From Halomicronema sp. CCY15110 (lineage in GTDB: Bacteria > Cyanobacteriota > Cyanobacteriia > Phormidesmidales > Phormidesmidaceae), in assembly GCF_016888165.1 (NCBI RefSeq), contig NZ_JACSWC010000252.1, forward strand, positions 1-53,158: DNA of 53,158 nucleotides, in the 5' to 3' direction. This document shows positions 41,143 to 48,764 of this stretch, one piece after another. The notes below the pieces were generated by a model. That model saw only the letters and a program-made list of their open reading frames with translations, had not been told where the DNA came from and made no database searches. Each line of letters starts with the position of its first letter. Position 1 is the stretch's first letter. Position numbers and translations under genes: made by a program.

Positions 41143-42192
41143 CTAATTGTTGAGGATCGCGTCTAGCAGCGGCTCAGCCCCAAAACGGATGACATCAGTC
41201 GCTAGTAATCCAGTTTCTTGGGTGGCTGCAGCGATCGCGTCCTTGGCTAAAGTCTCGTCAAAACCGTAGGTGTTCAGTGCAATGCCTACGGTTTTTGCTG
41301 GCGTGAAACAGTTGCCAGCAGCAGCGATCACTTCATAAATACGAATCGCCTCTGACAGCGACGGCGTGGGAATTGTTGGATGGTTGCGAATATGGGTCTG
41401 CCCCAAGCGATGAACCAAAATCAGGTGAGTCGGCTGGCTCCCGCGCATTAGCGGCAGGGTGGCGGTCGAGCCGGGATGAAAGATCGAGCCTTGTCCTTCG
41501 ATGAACAGGATGTCGTGGTCAGGGCCATACTTCATGACTTGCTGCTCCACGGCACCAGCAGCAAAGTCCACACGAATGGTATCTAGCGGGATGCCATCAT
41601 CGCCCAGCATCATGTTGGTTTGCCCAGTGGCAATCACTTTAGAACGGATCCCACGTTGCTGGGCTAATTTGTGCAATTCAAGATTAGTCGACATTTTGCC
41701 AATCGCCATATCTGTGCCCACTGGCAAGACCCGACGGCAACTCAACGATTTGGCTGCAGCGCTGGCAATGCCAAGGCCTTGAGGTTCCTGTCGGACATCC
41801 CAAATCCACTGAGATGACTGAACATGAGGAGTGAGTTGAGGATCAGTCGCCATCGGTGTGTGCAGCCCGTTGACTACATTGAGGCCCGCTTTGACTGCGG
41901 CTTTAACTTCCTCGTACCATGGTTCCGGTAAGGCTCCCCCGGAAGGAGCGATACCGATCATCAGCACTGAGGGCTGCAAGGCCAATGCAGCTTGAACAGA
42001 CTCGACAATCGGGACATCGCGATCAATGCCCGTCACCGCTTTCAGATCTTTGCCAGCTTGCTGTTCATCCACCACAGCGACAATGTTCAGCGGGCTATAG
42101 CGCAGAATGGATAAGCCCGTTTTGCCACCGGGATTATCCGTCCCCTCATGCATGAGCAAGGCGATGCGCTGGTCAGCGGTCAGGTAGTTCAT
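41143..42192 (-). CDS. DUF1611 protein, DgcN-like (D-glutamate N-acetyltransferase)
   Basis: A 349-residue protein of the DUF1611 family. It has an N-terminal Rossmann-like domain (PLNIVAVVDEQQAGKDL) and a C-terminal P-loop NTPase-like domain with the loop GTDMAIGKMST (residues 159-169). A member of this family, DgcN, was described as a D-glutamate N-acetyltransferase acting with the racemase DgcA. The same partnership is seen here: the upstream gene encodes an enolase-superfamily epimerase and the two overlap by 20 nt. The assignment to D-glutamate is by analogy; an older annotation of this family is simply unknown function. It is the last gene of a three-gene operon with the VWA gene. Confidence 0.82.
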   Translation of the reverse strand: MNYLTADQRIALLMHEGTDNPGGKTGLSILRYSPLNIVAVVDEQQAGKDLKAVTGIDRDVPIVESVQAALALQPSVLMIGIAPSGGALPEPWYEEVKAAVKAGLNVVNGLHTPMATDPQLTPHVQSSQWIWDVRQEPQGLGIASAAAKSLSCRRVLPVGTDMAIGKMSTNLELHKLAQQRGIRSKVIATGQTNMMLGDDGIPLDTIRVDFAAGAVEQQVMKYGPDHDILFIEGQGSIFHPGSTATLPLMRGSQPTHLILVHRLGQTHIRNHPTIPTPSLSEAIRIYEVIAAAGNCFTPAKTVGIALNTYGFDETLAKDAIAAATQETGLLATDVIRFGAEPLLDAILNN

Positions 42193-43228
42193 GGTGGGTC
42201 AATCCTAAACCGGGAGAATCATTGGGCAGTAAACGACCGGCCTGCATTGTAGCGCCCTGAAATGGATCGTCGGTCAGGTTCAGATGACTATCCAAATCTA
42301 GATGGTCGGCCAATGGCGCGAGGTGGGCTAAGGCGGTGTTCGAAATTGCGCTATCCGAGTAGCAGCCAAACATGACGTCTAAACCACAGGCGCGAGCTGT
42401 GTGAATCATCCGGCGGGCTTCGGTCAGCCCCCCAGCTTTCATTAGCTTGATATTGATGCCGTGAACCTGGCCTGCTAAACGCGCCACATCTTGGGCATTG
42501 AAGCAGCTTTCATCAACGAAAATGGGCAGGGGCGATCGCTCCGACAATGTCTGTAGCTGACGATCCAGCGTCACGGGGAGCGGTTGTTCCAAATAGGTGA
42601 CGCCCCTTTCAGCGAGCCAATCGGCCATCGCGATCGCCGTCTCTAAATCCCACCCGCCGTTGGCGTCAATGCTGATTTTTGTGCCGGGGGAAATTTCTCC
42701 CAACAGAGCGGTCATCATCGCTTGATCAGCCTGCATGCCAGCAGGACTGCCCAGCTTGATTTTGACGGATCGCAAATCCGGCACCTGAGTTTGCCATAGC
42801 TCTAGTCGGTGGACAGCTTTTTCTGGCGCATTAATACCCACTGTGACGGCAGTTGGGCCAATGCGGCTCTTGTCTAAGCCCCAAAGTTGCCACAGCGGGA
42901 GCTTGGCATACTGGCCCAACCAATCGTGTAAGGCGACATCGATCGCGGCCCTGGCTGCTGAGCTGAGTTGTGCCAATCGAGGTGCTAGACGTTGCCGTTC
43001 CAGCGGATGAAAGTCGGCGACTTCACTGGCTAGAACCGTGAGTTCTGTCGTTAATTGCTCGGTGGTTTGCGTTGGGGTGCCGAGGGAAAAAGCCGTCGCT
43101 TCGCCCCAGCCTTCAATGCCCTCTGCCTGTACCCGAACCCATAGATTGGTTGACTGGGCAGCGGTGCCCCGACTAATGGTGAGGGCAACGCGCTTATGCA
43201 CAGTGAAGGGGGTGACCGAAATCTGCAT
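42173..43228 (-). CDS. dipeptide epimerase / DgcA-like racemase, enolase superfamily
   Basis: A 351-residue enzyme of the enolase superfamily, muconate lactonising subgroup. The acid-base lysines are in VKIKLG (K156, K158) and NIKLMKAGG (K261/K264). The Mg2+ ligands are D188 (SIDANGGW), E214 (LEQPLP) and D239 (FVDESC). These features fit L-Ala-D/L-Glu dipeptide epimerases, which recycle cell-wall peptide, and the N-acetyl-D-glutamate racemase DgcA. The overlap with a DUF1611 (DgcN-like) gene favours the latter. ATG at 43,228, six bp after the VWA gene. Confidence 0.88.
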   Translation of the reverse strand: MQISVTPFTVHKRVALTISRGTAAQSTNLWVRVQAEGIEGWGEATAFSLGTPTQTTEQLTTELTVLASEVADFHPLERQRLAPRLAQLSSAARAAIDVALHDWLGQYAKLPLWQLWGLDKSRIGPTAVTVGINAPEKAVHRLELWQTQVPDLRSVKIKLGSPAGMQADQAMMTALLGEISPGTKISIDANGGWDLETAIAMADWLAERGVTYLEQPLPVTLDRQLQTLSERSPLPIFVDESCFNAQDVARLAGQVHGINIKLMKAGGLTEARRMIHTARACGLDVMFGCYSDSAISNTALAHLAPLADHLDLDSHLNLTDDPFQGATMQAGRLLPNDSPGLGLTHHELPDR

Positions 43229-43234
43229 GAGCGC

Positions 43235-44473
43235 CTACTGTAAGCGAGTTTTGGACACAATGCGGGTGCGTTTGCGATCGCGCTCCGACAAGTCTTTGCC
43301 CGATTGCAGCTGAGTTGCATTTTGTTGCAGCACAGTAGCGGCCCCCTGATCACCCATTTGCAGCGCCGTTTTGGCCGCCGATTGTAAGAGGGTAGCCGCG
43401 CCCTGGCGATCGCCCTGGGCCAACTTTTGCTCTGCGATTTGGGTTTGGCGATACTTCGCTAAGGTCAGCACATGCTTTTGCACCTGAGGATCGGGAGTGG
43501 CTTGATAAGCACTCTGTACCGTCGCACTGACAGTGACTGAGTCTGACTGCAAGCCCGTTTGGTTGACCGCTGGGGCATCGTAGCGCAGATATGCCTTAGC
43601 AATGGGACAAGTCCCTTCGCCCTGCGCCCCAATGTAGAGATTCGTTAGCACCACCCGGGGCGTGTCCGATAGCAAATCCCCCAGCCGCATCACCACTTCG
43701 TTGCCAGACTGTTCAAACGGCAGCTCAACTGTCTCGGGGGCGACTTGAGCAATGGGCTTGAGTTCTGCAAGACGCACACCTGGCAACAGTTCTAAATGCA
43801 GAAAGGCATTGGTGAAAAACACCGATTGCGCCCGAGTCAGAAGCCGACTAAATTCATCGACCGCTTTATCCGGCGCTTCGATGTACGACAGCGTCCCGCC
43901 CCCCGCATCCGCAATTTGTTCCAGCACGTCCTGGTTCCAGTGATCGCCAAATCCTAGGGCATTCATCGTGAGGGTATAGTCTGCCGCGACTTGCGCTAAC
44001 TTGAGACAGCGCTCGTTGGAGCCATGTTCATTTTCGCCATCGGTGAGCAGCAACATCTGCGAGACTTTTCCGTCCCGGCCAGGGGCCGCTGTTTCAATAC
44101 CGAGCTTCATCCCTTCATCGATCGCGGTGCCACCACTCGGTTTCAGAGCATTGATTTTACGCTTGATGGTGTCGCGATCGCTGACCGATTGCAGCGGCAA
44201 CAATACTTTGGCCCGGTGATCAAACACCACAATCGAAAGAGAATCTTGCTCCGAGAGCTGATCTACCAAGCGGCCCGCCGCTTCTTTGACCGTGGTCAGC
44301 GGCGGGCCATTCATTGAGCCGCTATGGTCAAGTACGAGTCCCAAGTTCAGCGGAGCGTGCCCAGCCCCCGCTCCTTCAGTAACTTGCACCGAAATCGCTA
44401 ACTGACGCTGGCTCGCCGTTTGTTGACTATCCAAAAATGGATCACTCAGGGCACAGTGCAGAGCGACGCTCAT
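43235..44473 (-). CDS. von Willebrand factor A domain protein
   Basis: A 412-residue protein. The VWA domain spans about residues 40-215 with an intact metal-ion-dependent adhesion site: DHSGSMN (DxSxS), a conserved Thr in GGTAIDEG and the Asp of LLTDGENEHG. C-terminal to it is a beta-rich region, then a helical tail (about 340-412). No signal peptide is seen, so it is probably cytoplasmic, where VWA proteins often work as adaptors for AAA+ ATPases or in signalling. GGAGAA upstream supports the ATG at 44,473 rather than a TTG at 44,488. It heads the operon with the epimerase and DUF1611 genes; the connection in function is unclear. Confidence 0.9.
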   Translation of the reverse strand: MSVALHCALSDPFLDSQQTASQRQLAISVQVTEGAGAGHAPLNLGLVLDHSGSMNGPPLTTVKEAAGRLVDQLSEQDSLSIVVFDHRAKVLLPLQSVSDRDTIKRKINALKPSGGTAIDEGMKLGIETAAPGRDGKVSQMLLLTDGENEHGSNERCLKLAQVAADYTLTMNALGFGDHWNQDVLEQIADAGGGTLSYIEAPDKAVDEFSRLLTRAQSVFFTNAFLHLELLPGVRLAELKPIAQVAPETVELPFEQSGNEVVMRLGDLLSDTPRVVLTNLYIGAQGEGTCPIAKAYLRYDAPAVNQTGLQSDSVTVSATVQSAYQATPDPQVQKHVLTLAKYRQTQIAEQKLAQGDRQGAATLLQSAAKTALQMGDQGAATVLQQNATQLQSGKDLSERDRKRTRIVSKTRLQ

Positions 44474-44593
44474 ACAGTAGTTCTCCAAAACAACTAATCG
44501 CAGAATGAAGTAGGGATATCTCGCCCGCTGACAGCTTCCTCACACACGTTACTATGTTAAGAACTGGGAAGCCTAAGTTATTACATTCCGTTT

Positions 44594-45289
44594 ATGAGCT
44601 CAACAATTCGTGCAGTACAAGCCCCCTATGGCGGCGGCGGTGGTGCCTACTATCGGACCCCCCCACCCGACTTACCCTCTTTGCTCCTCAAAGAGCGCAT
44701 TATTTACTTGGGGCTACCCTTGGTTTCGGCGGACGAATACAAGCGGCAATTGGGCGTTGACGTCACCAAATTAATTATTGCGCAGCTTTTGTTTTTGCAG
44801 TTCGACGATCCCGATAAGCCAATTTACTTCTACATTAATTCCACCGGCACCTCTTGGTACACCGGTGACGCGATCGGGCAAGACACCGAGGCTTTCGCGA
44901 TTTGTGACACGATTGGCTACATCAAGCCGCCCGTTCACACGATTTGCATTGGTCAAGCCATGGGCACTGCGGCCATGATTCTTTCCGCCGGAACCAAAGG
45001 CTACCGAGCCAGTCTGCCCAACGCCACCATTGTGCTGAACCAACCGCGCATTGGGATGGGGCGCGGACAAGCCACTGACATCCAGATTCGCGCTAAGGAA
45101 GTGTTAGATAACAAAGCTGCAATGCTGGATATTCTGTCTCGCAATACGGGGCAAGCAGCCGAAAAGATTGCGAGTGACACCGATCGCACCTTCTACCTCA
45201 CTCCCGAGCAAGCTAAGGAGTACGGTTTGATCGATCGCGTCTTGGAGAGTACCAAAGACCTGCCCAAACAAATGCCGGCAATGGCTTAG
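44594..45289 (+). CDS. clpR: ClpR, non-catalytic Clp protease subunit
   Basis: A 231-residue ClpP paralogue that assembles into the mixed ClpP3/R core ring of cyanobacteria. The triad is wholly absent: aligned with ClpP, Ser is G124 (CIGQAMGTAAM), His is N149 (LPNATIVLNQP) and Asp is T199 (DTDRTFYLT). The N-terminus PPPDLPSLLLKERIIYLG and the insert around NSTGTSWYTGDAIGQDTEAF are hallmarks of ClpR. It begins a tandem of three clp genes; the next starts 8 nt after its stop. Confidence 0.94.
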   Translation: MSSTIRAVQAPYGGGGGAYYRTPPPDLPSLLLKERIIYLGLPLVSADEYKRQLGVDVTKLIIAQLLFLQFDDPDKPIYFYINSTGTSWYTGDAIGQDTEAFAICDTIGYIKPPVHTICIGQAMGTAAMILSAGTKGYRASLPNATIVLNQPRIGMGRGQATDIQIRAKEVLDNKAAMLDILSRNTGQAAEKIASDTDRTFYLTPEQAKEYGLIDRVLESTKDLPKQMPAMA

Positions 45290-45297
45290 GATGCGCT

Positions 45298-45933
45298 ATG
45301 TCTGTTGATGGAATTTTACGCGTTCCCTATCAGGTGCCGGGAAGCCAAAATTGGCAATGGATCAATATCTACACCCGCCTGAGTCAAGAGCGCATTATTT
45401 TTCTCAATCAGCCGGTCTCGATGGGGTTGGCAAATTCAGTAATTTCGGCCCTGCTGTACCTCGACTCTGAGGATCAAGGTAAGCCGATTAATCTGTATAT
45501 CAATTCCATGGGGGATCCGGTCACGGCTGGCATGGCTGATGCGTTTTCAGGCATGGCCGGAGTGACGGCAACGCTCGCCATTTTGGACACCATGCAACAC
45601 ATTAAGTCGGAAATTACGACGATTTGCATGGGCCAATGTTTTGGGGTTGCTACGGTCTTGTTGTCAGCGGGTACGCCCGGTAAGCGCGTGAGTTTGCCTC
45701 ACTCCATGATTACCCTGGCGCAGCCCAAGGTGGCGACCCAAGGCCAGGCGACCGATATTCAAATCAATGCGGGCGAGGTGATTGCCAAGCGTCAACTCAT
45801 GATGGAGGTGTTGTCTCGCAACACCGGGCAATCATTAGAAAAGCTGACCCAAGATATGGATCGGACGTTTTACCTCACCCCTCAGGAAGCGGTGGAGTAC
45901 GGCATTATTGACCGGGTATTGGGCGATGCCTAG
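45298..45933 (+). CDS. second triad-less ClpP paralogue
   Basis: A 211-residue ClpP-fold protein between clpR and clpP. It too has lost all three catalytic residues: Ser position is G116 (CMGQCFGVATV), His is A141 (LPHSMITLAQP), Asp is T190 (DMDRTFYLT). An insertion of about 13 residues (DAFSGMAGVTATL) sits before the DTMQHIKSE helix. The N-terminus (VPYQVPGSQNWQWINIYTRL) is closer to ClpP3 than to ClpR, while the DRTFYLTP motif is shared with ClpR. It therefore looks like a further pseudo-subunit of the ClpP3/R ring. I know of only one ClpR in the model strains Synechocystis and Synechococcus, so this gene is unusual. Confidence 0.88.
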   Translation: MSVDGILRVPYQVPGSQNWQWINIYTRLSQERIIFLNQPVSMGLANSVISALLYLDSEDQGKPINLYINSMGDPVTAGMADAFSGMAGVTATLAILDTMQHIKSEITTICMGQCFGVATVLLSAGTPGKRVSLPHSMITLAQPKVATQGQATDIQINAGEVIAKRQLMMEVLSRNTGQSLEKLTQDMDRTFYLTPQEAVEYGIIDRVLGDA

Positions 45934-46002
45934 ACTCGGTCGCAGCCTGCCCTAACGACTATTTTTGTTCATTCACGTCAACTGTTTTAGGAGAATTTGA
46001 TT

Positions 46003-46623
46003 ATGCCCATTGGTGTCCCCAGCGTGGCTTACCGTATGCCCGGAAGTCCCTATGAGCAATGGATTAACATTTACGAGCGACTGTTTCGGGAGCGCATTAT
46101 CTTTTTGTCGGAAGAGGTGAACGACAACATCGCGAATGCGATCGTTGCCTATTTGCTCTATCTCGACTCTGACGACAACAGCAAGCCGATTTACCTTTAT
46201 ATCAACTCCCCTGGTGGCTCAGTGACGGCGGGCATGGCGATCTATGACACCATGCAGCACATCAAATCAGAAGTCATTACCATTTGTGTTGGCCTCGCGG
46301 CTTCGATGGGGGCTTTCTTGCTGGCGGCAGGAGCCCCCGGCAAGCGGCTGGCCCTACCTCACGCTCGGATCATGATTCACCAGCCGTTGGGCGGCGCGCG
46401 CGGTCAGGCTACTGATATCGAAATTGAAGCGAAGGAAGTGGTGCGGATTAAGCACACGCTGAATGAAATGCTTGCCAAGCATACTGGCAGGACTTTGGAA
46501 GAAATTGAGCGGGATACTGACCGCGACAACTTTATGTCGGCGCAGGCCGCTATGGAATATGGCTTGATTGACCGCGTGATTGAAGAACGAACGCAGGAAG
46601 CGATCGCTGCTGCCGCTGTTTAG
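46003..46623 (+). CDS. clpP: ATP-dependent Clp protease catalytic subunit, ClpP3-like
   Basis: A 206-residue serine protease subunit with the full triad Ser101 (GLAASMGAF), His126 ([10 protein letters not shown]) and Asp175 (DTDRDNF). The N-terminus [20 protein letters not shown] is typical of cyanobacterial ClpP3, which forms mixed heptamers with ClpR and works with ClpC. The ATG at 46,003 has AGGAG 9 bp upstream; a TTG two codons earlier is less likely. It is the only catalytically competent member of the tandem. Confidence 0.95.
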
Positions 46624-46926
46624 TACGAGTACGGCACGGTAACCGGGGATGCATAATTTTGGGGCATGGGTTGGGGCGATCGCTCCAACCCCAAGCGTTG
46701 GGTTGACTACCCCCATGGGTCGTCCCATGCATCGCTGAAATGCATGGGGCTGTGTCATCGGATTGGGCCAGCAACGTCGTGTCGTTGAAATCTGCCTAAG
46801 GCGTTGCTCCATAAGATCGGCTACAGCCTTCGCCACACAATTGTGTATGGACCATTTAATGCTTCCGAAAGAATCCGATACACTATGGCTAAATATCCAA
46901 TTATTTTCTCTTATAACAGATTCACA
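46624..46926. other. intergenic region with two inverted repeats
   Basis: About 300 bp between clpP and clpS. A near-perfect 22-bp palindrome built on a HIP1 core (46,669-46,690, outer arms GGTTGG and CCAACC) and a 9-bp perfect stem (46,724-46,732 with 46,740-46,748, 7-nt loop) lie here. They may end the clp transcript. The AT-rich segment from about 46,850 could contain the clpS promoter. Confidence 0.5.
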
Positions 46927-47250
46927 ATGACAGTCTCCTCTTCAGTGATTATCGGCGCGGCATCATCTCCGGCGGTAGCCCCTGCAAAGACTCGTCAGGT
47001 CGTGCGCCAGCCGTACCCCAATTACAAAATCATTGTGCTGAATGACGACTTCAATACCTTTCAGCATGTTGTCGAATGCTTGACCAAATACATTCCAGGC
47101 ATGAATAGCGATCAGGCTTGGGACTTGGCGAACAAAATTCATCATGAAGGTCAGGCTATTGTCTGGGTTGGGCCGCTAGAACAGGCTGAGCTATATCACA
47201 GTCAGTTGAGTCGAGCGGGACTGACGATGGCCCCATTAGAGCAAGCCTAA
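46927..47250 (+). CDS. clpS: Clp protease adaptor ClpS
   Basis: A 107-residue adaptor that delivers N-degron substrates to ClpC. The core is YPNYKIIVLNDDFNTFQHVV, with the NDDFNT motif typical of ClpS, then WDLANKIHHEGQAIVWVGPL. The start at 46,927 (MTVSSSVIIG) is chosen by similarity; an in-frame ATG at 46,885 exists and neither has a clear ribosome-binding site. It lies directly after three clp genes, consistent with joint function. Confidence 0.93.
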   Translation: MTVSSSVIIGAASSPAVAPAKTRQVVRQPYPNYKIIVLNDDFNTFQHVVECLTKYIPGMNSDQAWDLANKIHHEGQAIVWVGPLEQAELYHSQLSRAGLTMAPLEQA

Positions 47251-47295: not shown

Positions 47296-47610
47296 GTGGG
47301 GGAGATTGTGGGAAAGCCAACGCCGGGACGACTTGTCTGGAACCACTCAACCCATTTGCCTGGCTTGATTCCGGTGTTAGAAAAGCTCTTGGAGCTGGCC
47401 GATGAAATTCAGACTATTACCCCTGCCCGATTATCGACGGCACGGAGTAATGCGCCCAAGCTCCGACTTAAAATTTCGGTCCCCATTCGTGGTGGTTATA
47501 AGCTGATTGCACGTAAGGGCCGATCGGCGCAAGAGGTTTTTGTCATTACTGAACTAGCGCCACAGTCTCTGAATGAGGCGATCGCTCAGGCCATTGCCGC
47601 CCGCTCATGA
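47296..47610 (+). CDS. DUF2103-like small protein
   Basis: A protein of about 104 residues resembling the DUF2103 family of small cyanobacterial and archaeal proteins, sometimes called predicted metal-binding. Characteristic stretches are GRLVWNHSTHLPGLIPVLEK and RGGYKLIARKGRSAQEVFVI. The start is a GTG (47,296 or 47,308) without a well-spaced ribosome-binding site. Its stop overlaps the trm1 start by 4 nt (ATGA), so the two are translationally coupled. Function is unknown; coupling to trm1 hints at RNA metabolism. Confidence 0.75.
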   Translation: MGEIVGKPTPGRLVWNHSTHLPGLIPVLEKLLELADEIQTITPARLSTARSNAPKLRLKISVPIRGGYKLIARKGRSAQEVFVITELAPQSLNEAIAQAIAARS

Positions 47611-48764
47611 CGCCGCCGCAGTCGCCCTCGCTCATCACCGAAGGTCAGGCTCGATTTCACGTTGGCTCAGCCTTTTACCGGGAGCAAAGCCGACTTGGTC
47701 GCGATTTAGCGATTTTGGCCGCTGCGGTGGATCAGCAAACACGGGGAACACTGCGAGTACTGGATGCCATGTCGGGCTGTGGCGTGCGATCGCTACGTTA
47801 TGCCCTCGAAGCGGCGGCGGACTTGGTCTGGGCGAATGAAGGGAATCCCGAGTTAGGGGATCTGCTGCATCACAACCTGGCACAAAGTCTGACAAACGAG
47901 AGCTTTCGTGTCACCCACCGTGATGCCAACGAAGTTTTTTTCGAGTGCTACCAGCGACGTGACTTTTATGACCTGGTGGATATTGATAGCTTTGGGGGCG
48001 GTGCGCCGTATCTTTCCACTGGGCTCTGGGCGACCAAACTCGGCGGCCTGCTGTATCTCACCAGCACGGATACCCGCACGACTGGGGGGCACAATCCTGA
48101 GCACAGCGTACAGCTTTACGGAGCCTACGCCCGTCCGCATCCGGCTAGTCATGAGCAAGGGGCCAGACTACTCATTGGCAGTGCCATGCAACAAGCCGCA
48201 GCAAGGGGTTTAGCCGTTCAGCCGGTATTCGCTTATTACAATGGCCACGTACATCGGGTGATGCTGCGCTTGACAGCAGCCCAGTCTTGGCCAGCCAAAC
48301 AGTATGGGTTTTTGGGCTATTGCCATCATTGTGGGCACTACCAAACTTTATCTTGGCGGCAGTTGGGACGGGCCATTTGTGACCATGGCGCGATCTCAAG
48401 GGCGATCGCGCCTCAGCCCCTCACGATCAGCGGGCCAATGTGGTTAGGCCCGTTGCATGACGAGGCGTTTTTAGCCCAGATGCAGGGATTGGCACTGCAA
48501 CGGGACTGGCGAGAAGCGACCGATCTGCTCGGGATGATGATAAATGAGTCAGCCTTGCCGCCATACTATTTCACCCTGCCAGAAATTGGCCGTCGAGGGC
48601 GGATGGATATTCCCAAGCGGGACAAGCTGATGACGGAGTTACGCGATCGCGGTTTCCACGTCAGTCAGACTCACTTCGAAGCCCAAGCCATTAAAACGGA
48701 TGCCGCGATCGCGGACTGTATTAATGCCGCGCGGACTTGTCAGGCTGTCCCTCACCCGCTGTAG
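47607..48764 (+). CDS. trm1: tRNA (guanine26-N2)-dimethyltransferase Trm1
   Basis: A 385-residue SAM-dependent enzyme that makes N2,N2-dimethylguanosine at position 26 (and in Aquifex also 27) of tRNA. It shows the Trm1 start EGQARFHVGSAFYREQSRLG, SAM motif I in LDAMSGCGVRSLRYALEA, the catalytic-site region YDLVDIDSFGGGAPYL, and LYLTSTDTRTTGG. A C-x2-C...C pattern (YCHHCGHYQ and CDHG) suggests a degenerate zinc site. Trm1 is typical of eukaryotes and archaea; among bacteria it is known from Aquifex and cyanobacteria. It is the last native gene before the foreign region. Confidence 0.94.
   Translation: MTPPQSPSLITEGQARFHVGSAFYREQSRLGRDLAILAAAVDQQTRGTLRVLDAMSGCGVRSLRYALEAAADLVWANEGNPELGDLLHHNLAQSLTNESFRVTHRDANEVFFECYQRRDFYDLVDIDSFGGGAPYLSTGLWATKLGGLLYLTSTDTRTTGGHNPEHSVQLYGAYARPHPASHEQGARLLIGSAMQQAAARGLAVQPVFAYYNGHVHRVMLRLTAAQSWPAKQYGFLGYCHHCGHYQTLSWRQLGRAICDHGAISRAIAPQPLTISGPMWLGPLHDEAFLAQMQGLALQRDWREATDLLGMMINESALPPYYFTLPEIGRRGRMDIPKRDKLMTELRDRGFHVSQTHFEAQAIKTDAAIADCINAARTCQAVPHPL

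Follow-up and report, generated by a model that had tools for sequence, protein, structure and literature searches.

The window analysed here, a stretch of 53,158 nucleotides from Halomicronema sp. CCY15110, contains three open reading frames of the ClpP family arranged in tandem on the forward strand: clpR (44594–45289, 231 aa), a middle gene that will be called M (45298–45933, 211 aa) and clpP3 (46003–46623, 206 aa). The clpP3 frame reaches back to a TTG at 45997 in the list of open reading frames, and the ATG at 46003 was adopted as its start. Intergenic gaps are short, with 8 bases between clpR and M and 69 bases between M and clpP3. The third protein has an intact catalytic triad (S101, H126, D175), and in the columns aligned to it ClpR carries G124, N149 and T199 while M carries G116, A141 and T190. 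The original prediction of three ClpP paralogues in tandem, two of which have the entire triad replaced, is thus borne out to the residue. Two more ClpP genes, both with Ser, His and Asp in place, are found elsewhere in the genome (contigs C58 and C347). Since M recurs at the same position in other genomes, including the single-contig assemblies G046, G162 and G199, it is neither a chance frame nor an artefact.

Upstream of the tandem and divergent from clpR lies a gene for a von Willebrand factor type A protein (43235–44488, reverse strand), preceded at 41143–43228 on the same strand by two overlapping frames which, judged by eye, appear to encode a DUF1611-type protein and an enolase-superfamily epimerase. 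Downstream, clpP3 is followed by a gene for the ClpS adaptor (46804–47250; NF009563, 179.8 bits), a DUF2103 protein (47296–47610) and a Trm1-type tRNA dimethylguanosine methyltransferase (47607–48764; Pfam TRM, 213 bits). The notion that the linkage to ClpS is part of the system was dropped: among the loci compared, it was encountered in three species of the genus to which the window belongs, that of the window included, and otherwise just at L022, L068 and L141, where ClpS is on the opposite strand; given the short flanks available, this check is a weak one.

M is a member of the ClpP superfamily, scoring 201.8 bits with the Pfam model CLP_protease (PF00574) against a gathering score of 20.2. 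Beyond this level it resists classification: it stays below the cut-off of all ten NCBIfam models that it matches. As an active ClpP it reaches 217.1 bits with NF001368 (cut-off 249), a model passed by the neighbouring ClpP3 (314.6), and 194.5 with TIGR00493 (cut-off 308.6), which the ClpP3 of the window itself misses (297.1). The cyanobacterial ClpR model NF009204 gives 208.9 bits against a cut-off of 263, even though M lacks the triad as a ClpR does. By comparison, the ClpR of the window scores 409.5 with this model, and its ClpP3 passes NF009205 as well as NF001368. Two types of M will be distinguished, type A, to which the M of the window belongs, and a more divergent type B, of which the single protein scored likewise passed no NCBIfam cut-off. 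At the nucleophile column the type A proteins (n=64) have Gly in 61 cases and Ser in 3, with one His and no Asp at the two other columns; type B proteins (n=11) have Gly in 6 and Ser in 5, with neither His nor Asp. In the alignment columns, the catalytic Asp is found in 0 of the 75 M proteins and the three triad residues occur together in none. Four type B proteins of one genus (L069, L070, L071 and L073) present Ser at the nucleophile column, within AASSA, with His and Asp absent.

What sets M apart is its composition. Residues 1–110 (45298–45627) resemble ClpP3 and residues 111–211 (45628–45930) resemble ClpR, both in log-odds blocks and in identities, with the switch just ahead of the nucleophile position, so that the ClpR-like part contains all three dead triad positions. 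The log-odds blocks of the window's M favour ClpP3 over 1–110, apart from a neutral block 71–80 with only 2 scored columns, and favour ClpR from 111 on, apart from block 121–130. This last block (45658–45687) is a short ClpP3-like patch, LLSAGTPGKR, which perhaps reflects later gene conversion or constraint on GKR. Identities within the window run in the same direction, at 0.61 to ClpP3 and 0.37 to ClpR over residues 8–104, and at 0.58 to ClpR and 0.44 to ClpP3 over residues 111–208. Masked profile scoring recovered a ClpP3-like N part joined to a ClpR-like C part in 64/64 type A and 11/11 type B proteins. The same scoring found this pattern in 0/100 ClpR, 0/100 ClpP3 and 0/16 ClpP1/P2-like controls; the profiles were built from M-less genomes only (25 ClpR and 26 ClpP3, which also figure among the controls), and the triad columns were masked together with two columns on either side. 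The scoring excluded proteins shorter than 180 aa (e.g., the truncated ClpP3 of G026) and second loci from a genome already represented, as well as L053, L109 and L112, which are truncated or have broken ClpP3 or other frames. With the ClpR and ClpP3 of the same genome as reference, the pattern is seen in 63/63 type A and 11/11 type B proteins, and mean identities of type A to its own ClpR and ClpP3 over 63 genomes are 0.37 and 0.62 for the N part, compared with 0.61 and 0.47 for the C part.

Breakpoints determined per sequence have medians of 108 or 113 for type A, depending on which of two profile sets is used, and of 105 for type B. Together with a DNA comparison of the three genes they delimit a putative crossover zone at residues 105–113 (45610–45636), which coincides with the TIC-x-G motif common to both parents. 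M also has about 14 extra residues relative to ClpP3 after YINSxG (45511–45552, limits approximate), a position that we take to be adjacent to the oxyanion loop. By eye this insert resembles a duplicated VTAGMA segment of ClpP3, and in the alignment ClpR carries a different insert at the same place. Several M proteins keep the ClpR-like C-terminal tail ESTK-LP. Type B (L065–L075, e.g., L069:2570–3199, reverse strand) switches slightly earlier, near residue 105, has a shorter insert and in many cases ends in a tail like that of ClpR. M is very probably a ClpP3/ClpR chimera by origin. A second ClpR arising by simple duplication was rejected, the N half not being of ClpR type by the profiles or by the AU test given below; the original prediction of a second pseudo-subunit beside ClpR thus holds as to the missing catalysis and fails as to the kinship.

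In FastTree phylogenies of 291 proteins, M groups within ClpP3 when its N halves are used and within ClpR when its C halves are used, at moderate support. AU tests were run on 65 of the 291 proteins, picked by hand for spread, over 97 columns for the C half and 69 for the N half. For the C half a clade of M and ClpP3 is rejected (p=0.0001), while ClpR without M as one clade is rejected by AU (p=0.033) but not by KH (0.128) or SH (0.327). A second, uncut search yielded no better tree for ClpR as one clade. Some of the trees came from shortened searches, and uncut repeats of four of the C-half searches led to no better likelihoods. For the N half, a clade of M with all ClpRs except that of genome G035 is rejected (AU p=0.003), and p falls far lower when three deep ClpRs are placed outside. 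For this half the test does not reject a sister relation of M to all ClpRs (AU p=0.34), nor does it significantly prefer a position inside ClpP3 (ClpP3 as one clade, p=0.23). Given these conflicting results, M cannot lie inside ClpR for both halves on one tree; ClpR descent applies to the C half and does not extend over the whole length. A preceding AU analysis of 118 proteins based on fast searches, unreliable in that a constrained tree beat the free tree, rejected M with ClpP3 for the C half (p=0.036) and neither M with ClpR nor M with ClpP3 for the N half. A single clade of types A and B is compatible with both halves (AU p=0.26 and 0.46). The 69-column trees do not fix the exact identity of the ClpP3 parent of the N half.

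Among 39 genomes, namely that of the window and 38 relatives, 14 besides its own contain orthologues of M with 62–98 % identity, and three of these 14 belong to different families of the class. In a wider sample of 388 genomes of the class, 60 of which belong to the window's own family, a profile of 15 M proteins detected type A in 71, each at 329.9 bits or more. In one of the 71, G303, the frames of clpR, M and clpP3 are all broken, which looks like an assembly fault. Among the matches listed, those at 293 bits or less proved in the 14 loci fetched to be ClpP3 or type B, the latter at 253–293 bits. A type B profile found this type in 17 of the 388 genomes (16 full-length and one partial), its other 28 matches being type A genomes. 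The two sets are disjoint, which brings the sampled species with a middle gene to 88/388. A phylum-wide sample of 194 genomes, given as a single figure for the window's class and all others, contained 10 carriers, all in this class. Among the loci listed, type A is carried by Leptolyngbya sp. PCC 6406 and PCC 7375, Arthrospira sp. PCC 9108, Adonisia turfae, Chamaesiphon polymorphus and Dolichospermum planctonicum NIES-80, and type B by Elainella saxicola and Kaiparowitsia implicata.

Full-length open frames of M occur at 75 loci across 11 family codes. In 75/75, clpR immediately precedes M on the same strand, with a median gap of 25 bases. M is immediately followed by a full-length clpP3 in 73/75 (median gap 59 bases), and it sits between clpR and clpP3 in 74/75. 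One exception, G026, has a truncated clpP3 in place at a contig end. In the other, G028 (L015, L076), clpR and M are adjacent and clpP3 lies elsewhere on the single contig (1.37 and 4.09 Mb). Where M is absent, clpR and clpP3 are separated by 27–118 bases (19 loci), by up to 378 bases in further M-less loci, and by 613 bases in G027. A degenerate M within this last gap (L130:1371–1983) was considered and rejected, as it contains other frames; these short frames resemble a broken, unrelated gene. At the M-less locus L144, an apparent M is the tail of a frame-broken clpR. A clpR-clpP3 pair of cyanobacterial type was also met on a contig (L235) filed under the metagenome bin ‘Tatlockia sp. isolate MGR_bin123’, which looks mixed or misnamed.

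M is under purifying selection. Within the genus (15 pairs), the median dN/dS is 0.037 for M, 0.016 for ClpR and 0.017 for ClpP3, all of them rough values with a median dS of 1.7–1.9 and 1 to 5 saturated pairs per gene. The N part of M has a dN/dS of 0.023 and the C part one of 0.056. The neighbours of M are distinctive as well. Residues 25, 28, 29, 36, 37, 46 and 50 separate the ClpP3 encoded beside type A from that of genomes lacking M, with F28 in 62/63 vs 0/26, R29 in 63/63 vs 3/26, E37 in 61/63 vs 1/26 and Y50 in 63/63 vs 1/26; the ClpP3 of the window bears E25, F28, R29, E37, A46 and Y50. M itself mostly has the state commonest in M-less ClpP3 (T25 in 58, Q29 in 61, Q37 in 59, S46 in 58 and A50 in 49 of 64 proteins). 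The motif RLFRE or RLFQE was found in none of 29 ClpP3 proteins from further M-less genomes (30 chosen, 29 of which gave a ClpP3), one having the F without the R. Among 80 named loci listed, several of which come from genomes already in the counts above, it is present in 37/37 type A loci with a readable motif vs 0/34 without M. In ClpR, residue 59 is K or R in 64/64 proteins beside type A, R in 10/11 beside type B and E in 23/25 without M. Type B loci have RLSLE in ClpP3, a motif also seen in some M-less loci. In FastTree the ClpP3 bearing the signature form nearly one clade, and presence and absence occur within the same families (f1, f3, f11, f15 and f26). Because of the near-single clade, the association between signature and M may stem from one shared inheritance of the cassette rather than from repeated co-adaptation.

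Modelled with AlphaFold2, M adopts the ClpP fold (mean pLDDT 81), and the 50 PDB matches listed for the model all come from ClpP or ClpXP entries. The breakpoint presumably corresponds to residues 86–94 or so in E. coli numbering, and helices A and B presumably hold the positions of the ClpP3 signature. On this mapping by residue numbers, the apical part, including much of the chaperone cleft, would be supplied by the first half of M, and the dead site and the handle by the second half.

In a 2021 review (PMC7966870), cyanobacteria are given one ClpR, in line with what the original prediction had said of model cyanobacteria, the picture being drawn mostly from three strains. According to the same review (PMC7966870), model cyanobacteria cannot do without the ClpP3/R protease, the Clp proteases of plastids descend from cyanobacterial ones, and the plastid ClpPR core has several non-catalytic subunits. 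The Synechococcus ClpP3/R ring consists of three ClpP3 and four ClpR in alternation, and the reason for mixing active and dead subunits is called unclear, according to a second article (PMC4673316). Searches of an open-access collection, judged by title and start of abstract, listed no paper pointing to a second or hybrid subunit, and M is apparently undescribed so far. The original prediction had allowed for a common and already described paralogue; common it is, in 71/388 genomes as type A and 17/388 as type B, but described it is not, as far as these searches reach.

M shares with the cyanobacterial ClpR (NF009204/PRK12552) the ClpP fold, the missing triad, the clustering with clpP3 and the descent of its C half, but it has a different insert and lacks both the YRTPPPDL start and the rest of the ClpR N half, and it scores below the cut-off of this model. 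With ClpP3 it has the character of residues 1–110 in common; the M of the window differs from it by the absent Ser, His and Asp, the ClpR-type C half and the additional residues after YINSxG. The plastid core with ClpR1–R4, invoked in the original prediction, also combines several non-catalytic subunits, a parallel that is an analogy only. The PDB chain 7eko_N, which we take to belong to the plastid ClpPR core, aligns to residues 21–224 of the window's ClpR, including a ClpR-type start (PPPDLPSLL) that is absent from M; as far as PDB chains go, the 60 best matches of ClpR include 7eko_N and 7eko_K, whereas the 60 best of M include neither. We know of no chimeric ClpP3/ClpR subunit in the plastid core. 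A precedent for the gene itself is offered by the human haemoglobin genes of the anti-Lepore type, hybrids of two tandem globin genes that arose by unequal crossing-over with both parents kept. M likewise stands between its retained tandem parents, but its family is old, under selection and bacterial.

The reading that we prefer, with a probability of roughly two in three, is that the ClpP3/R core contains M as a third kind of subunit, without catalysis, whose gene arose when the adjacent clpP3 and clpR underwent unequal crossing-over. Such an event would have joined the front of ClpP3 (residues 1 to about 110) to the back of ClpR (from about 111 on), and a single crossover between tandem copies would leave precisely the order observed, clpR, hybrid, clpP3. 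Since the positions of the nucleophile, His and Asp are all in the ClpR part, the same event would account for the dead site. The triad of M was thus probably inherited dead rather than lost again; an independent loss in M is not needed, and of the earlier statement that both genes had ‘lost’ Ser, His and Asp we retain the absence but, for M, not the loss. M would keep the ClpP fold, with an apical, chaperone-facing first half in the style of ClpP3, to which the second half would add the inactive active site and the handle of ClpR. We infer further that it is co-expressed within the clpR-M-clpP3 cluster and co-assembles with ClpR and ClpP3; its incorporation into the core is likely. By taking the place of a ClpR or ClpP3 in the ring, M would determine how many active sites there are, how they are spaced and what kind of docking clefts is presented to ClpC. 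A changed ring composition appears to be the likeliest consequence. A seven-membered ring cannot alternate two subunits perfectly, and the known ClpP3/R ring, R-P3-R-P3-R-P3-R, has one R-R contact. This leads to the more specific idea of M as a dedicated seventh subunit at the R-R seam, in a defined ring of three ClpP3, three ClpR and one M with one special docking cleft for ClpC, whereby ClpP3, and ClpR through the change of E59 to K or R, would have re-tuned the contacts of their N halves. We put this forward tentatively, as an unlikely but not negligible arrangement.

The data could also be read without recombination. M would then be an old sister of ClpR: a copy of ClpP3 would have become ClpR, lost its triad and been duplicated, after which ClpR would have rebuilt its N half (the YRTPPPDL start and the insertions) while M kept a ClpP3-like one. 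In favour of such a course, the AU test on the N half does not reject M with ClpR (p=0.34), and the N half of ClpR sits on a long branch. However, the C half of M lies among ClpRs that already possess the ClpR N half (AU p=0.033, with KH and SH not rejecting the contrary), and the deep ClpRs of G035 and G027 fall outside M in FastTree (supports 0.90 and 0.54). M would moreover have to predate most ClpRs and to have been lost in most of the class, and we regard this history as rather improbable. The resemblance of the C half to ClpR might, in addition, be put down to convergence, as both proteins lack the triad and could share relaxed constraint. Of all the explanations this is the least credible, because the signal persists in 75/75 proteins with the triad columns and their surroundings masked, reaches into the C-terminal tail, and places M nested within ClpR.

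As to function, M could be part of the operon and yet act outside the ClpP3/R ring, as a homo-heptamer, as a decoy for ClpC or within the ClpP1/P2 core. Some ClpP paralogues indeed form separate homogeneous rings, as reported in PMC4673316. The constant position next to clpR, nearly always with clpP3 on the other side, and the link to a distinct type of ClpP3 speak against this, and we hold it to be improbable, slightly more so than descent as an old sister of ClpR. A functionless M, in decay or close to neutrality after duplication, could be argued from a dN/dS about twice that of ClpR and ClpP3, from the missing triad and from its absence in most sampled species. Such a reading is very hard to reconcile with a dN/dS of 0.037, with full-length frames at 75 loci and with many invariant columns among diverse M, and deserves hardly more credit than convergence.

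If M joins the ring, the core composition described so far would fail for about a fifth of the sampled species (88/388); Arthrospira and Dolichospermum are among the carriers. The role of dead subunits becomes testable through M, as the three subunits can be co-expressed and weighed. Should M indeed be a ring component, recombination between tandem paralogues would constitute a one-step route to a new subunit with interfaces matched in advance.
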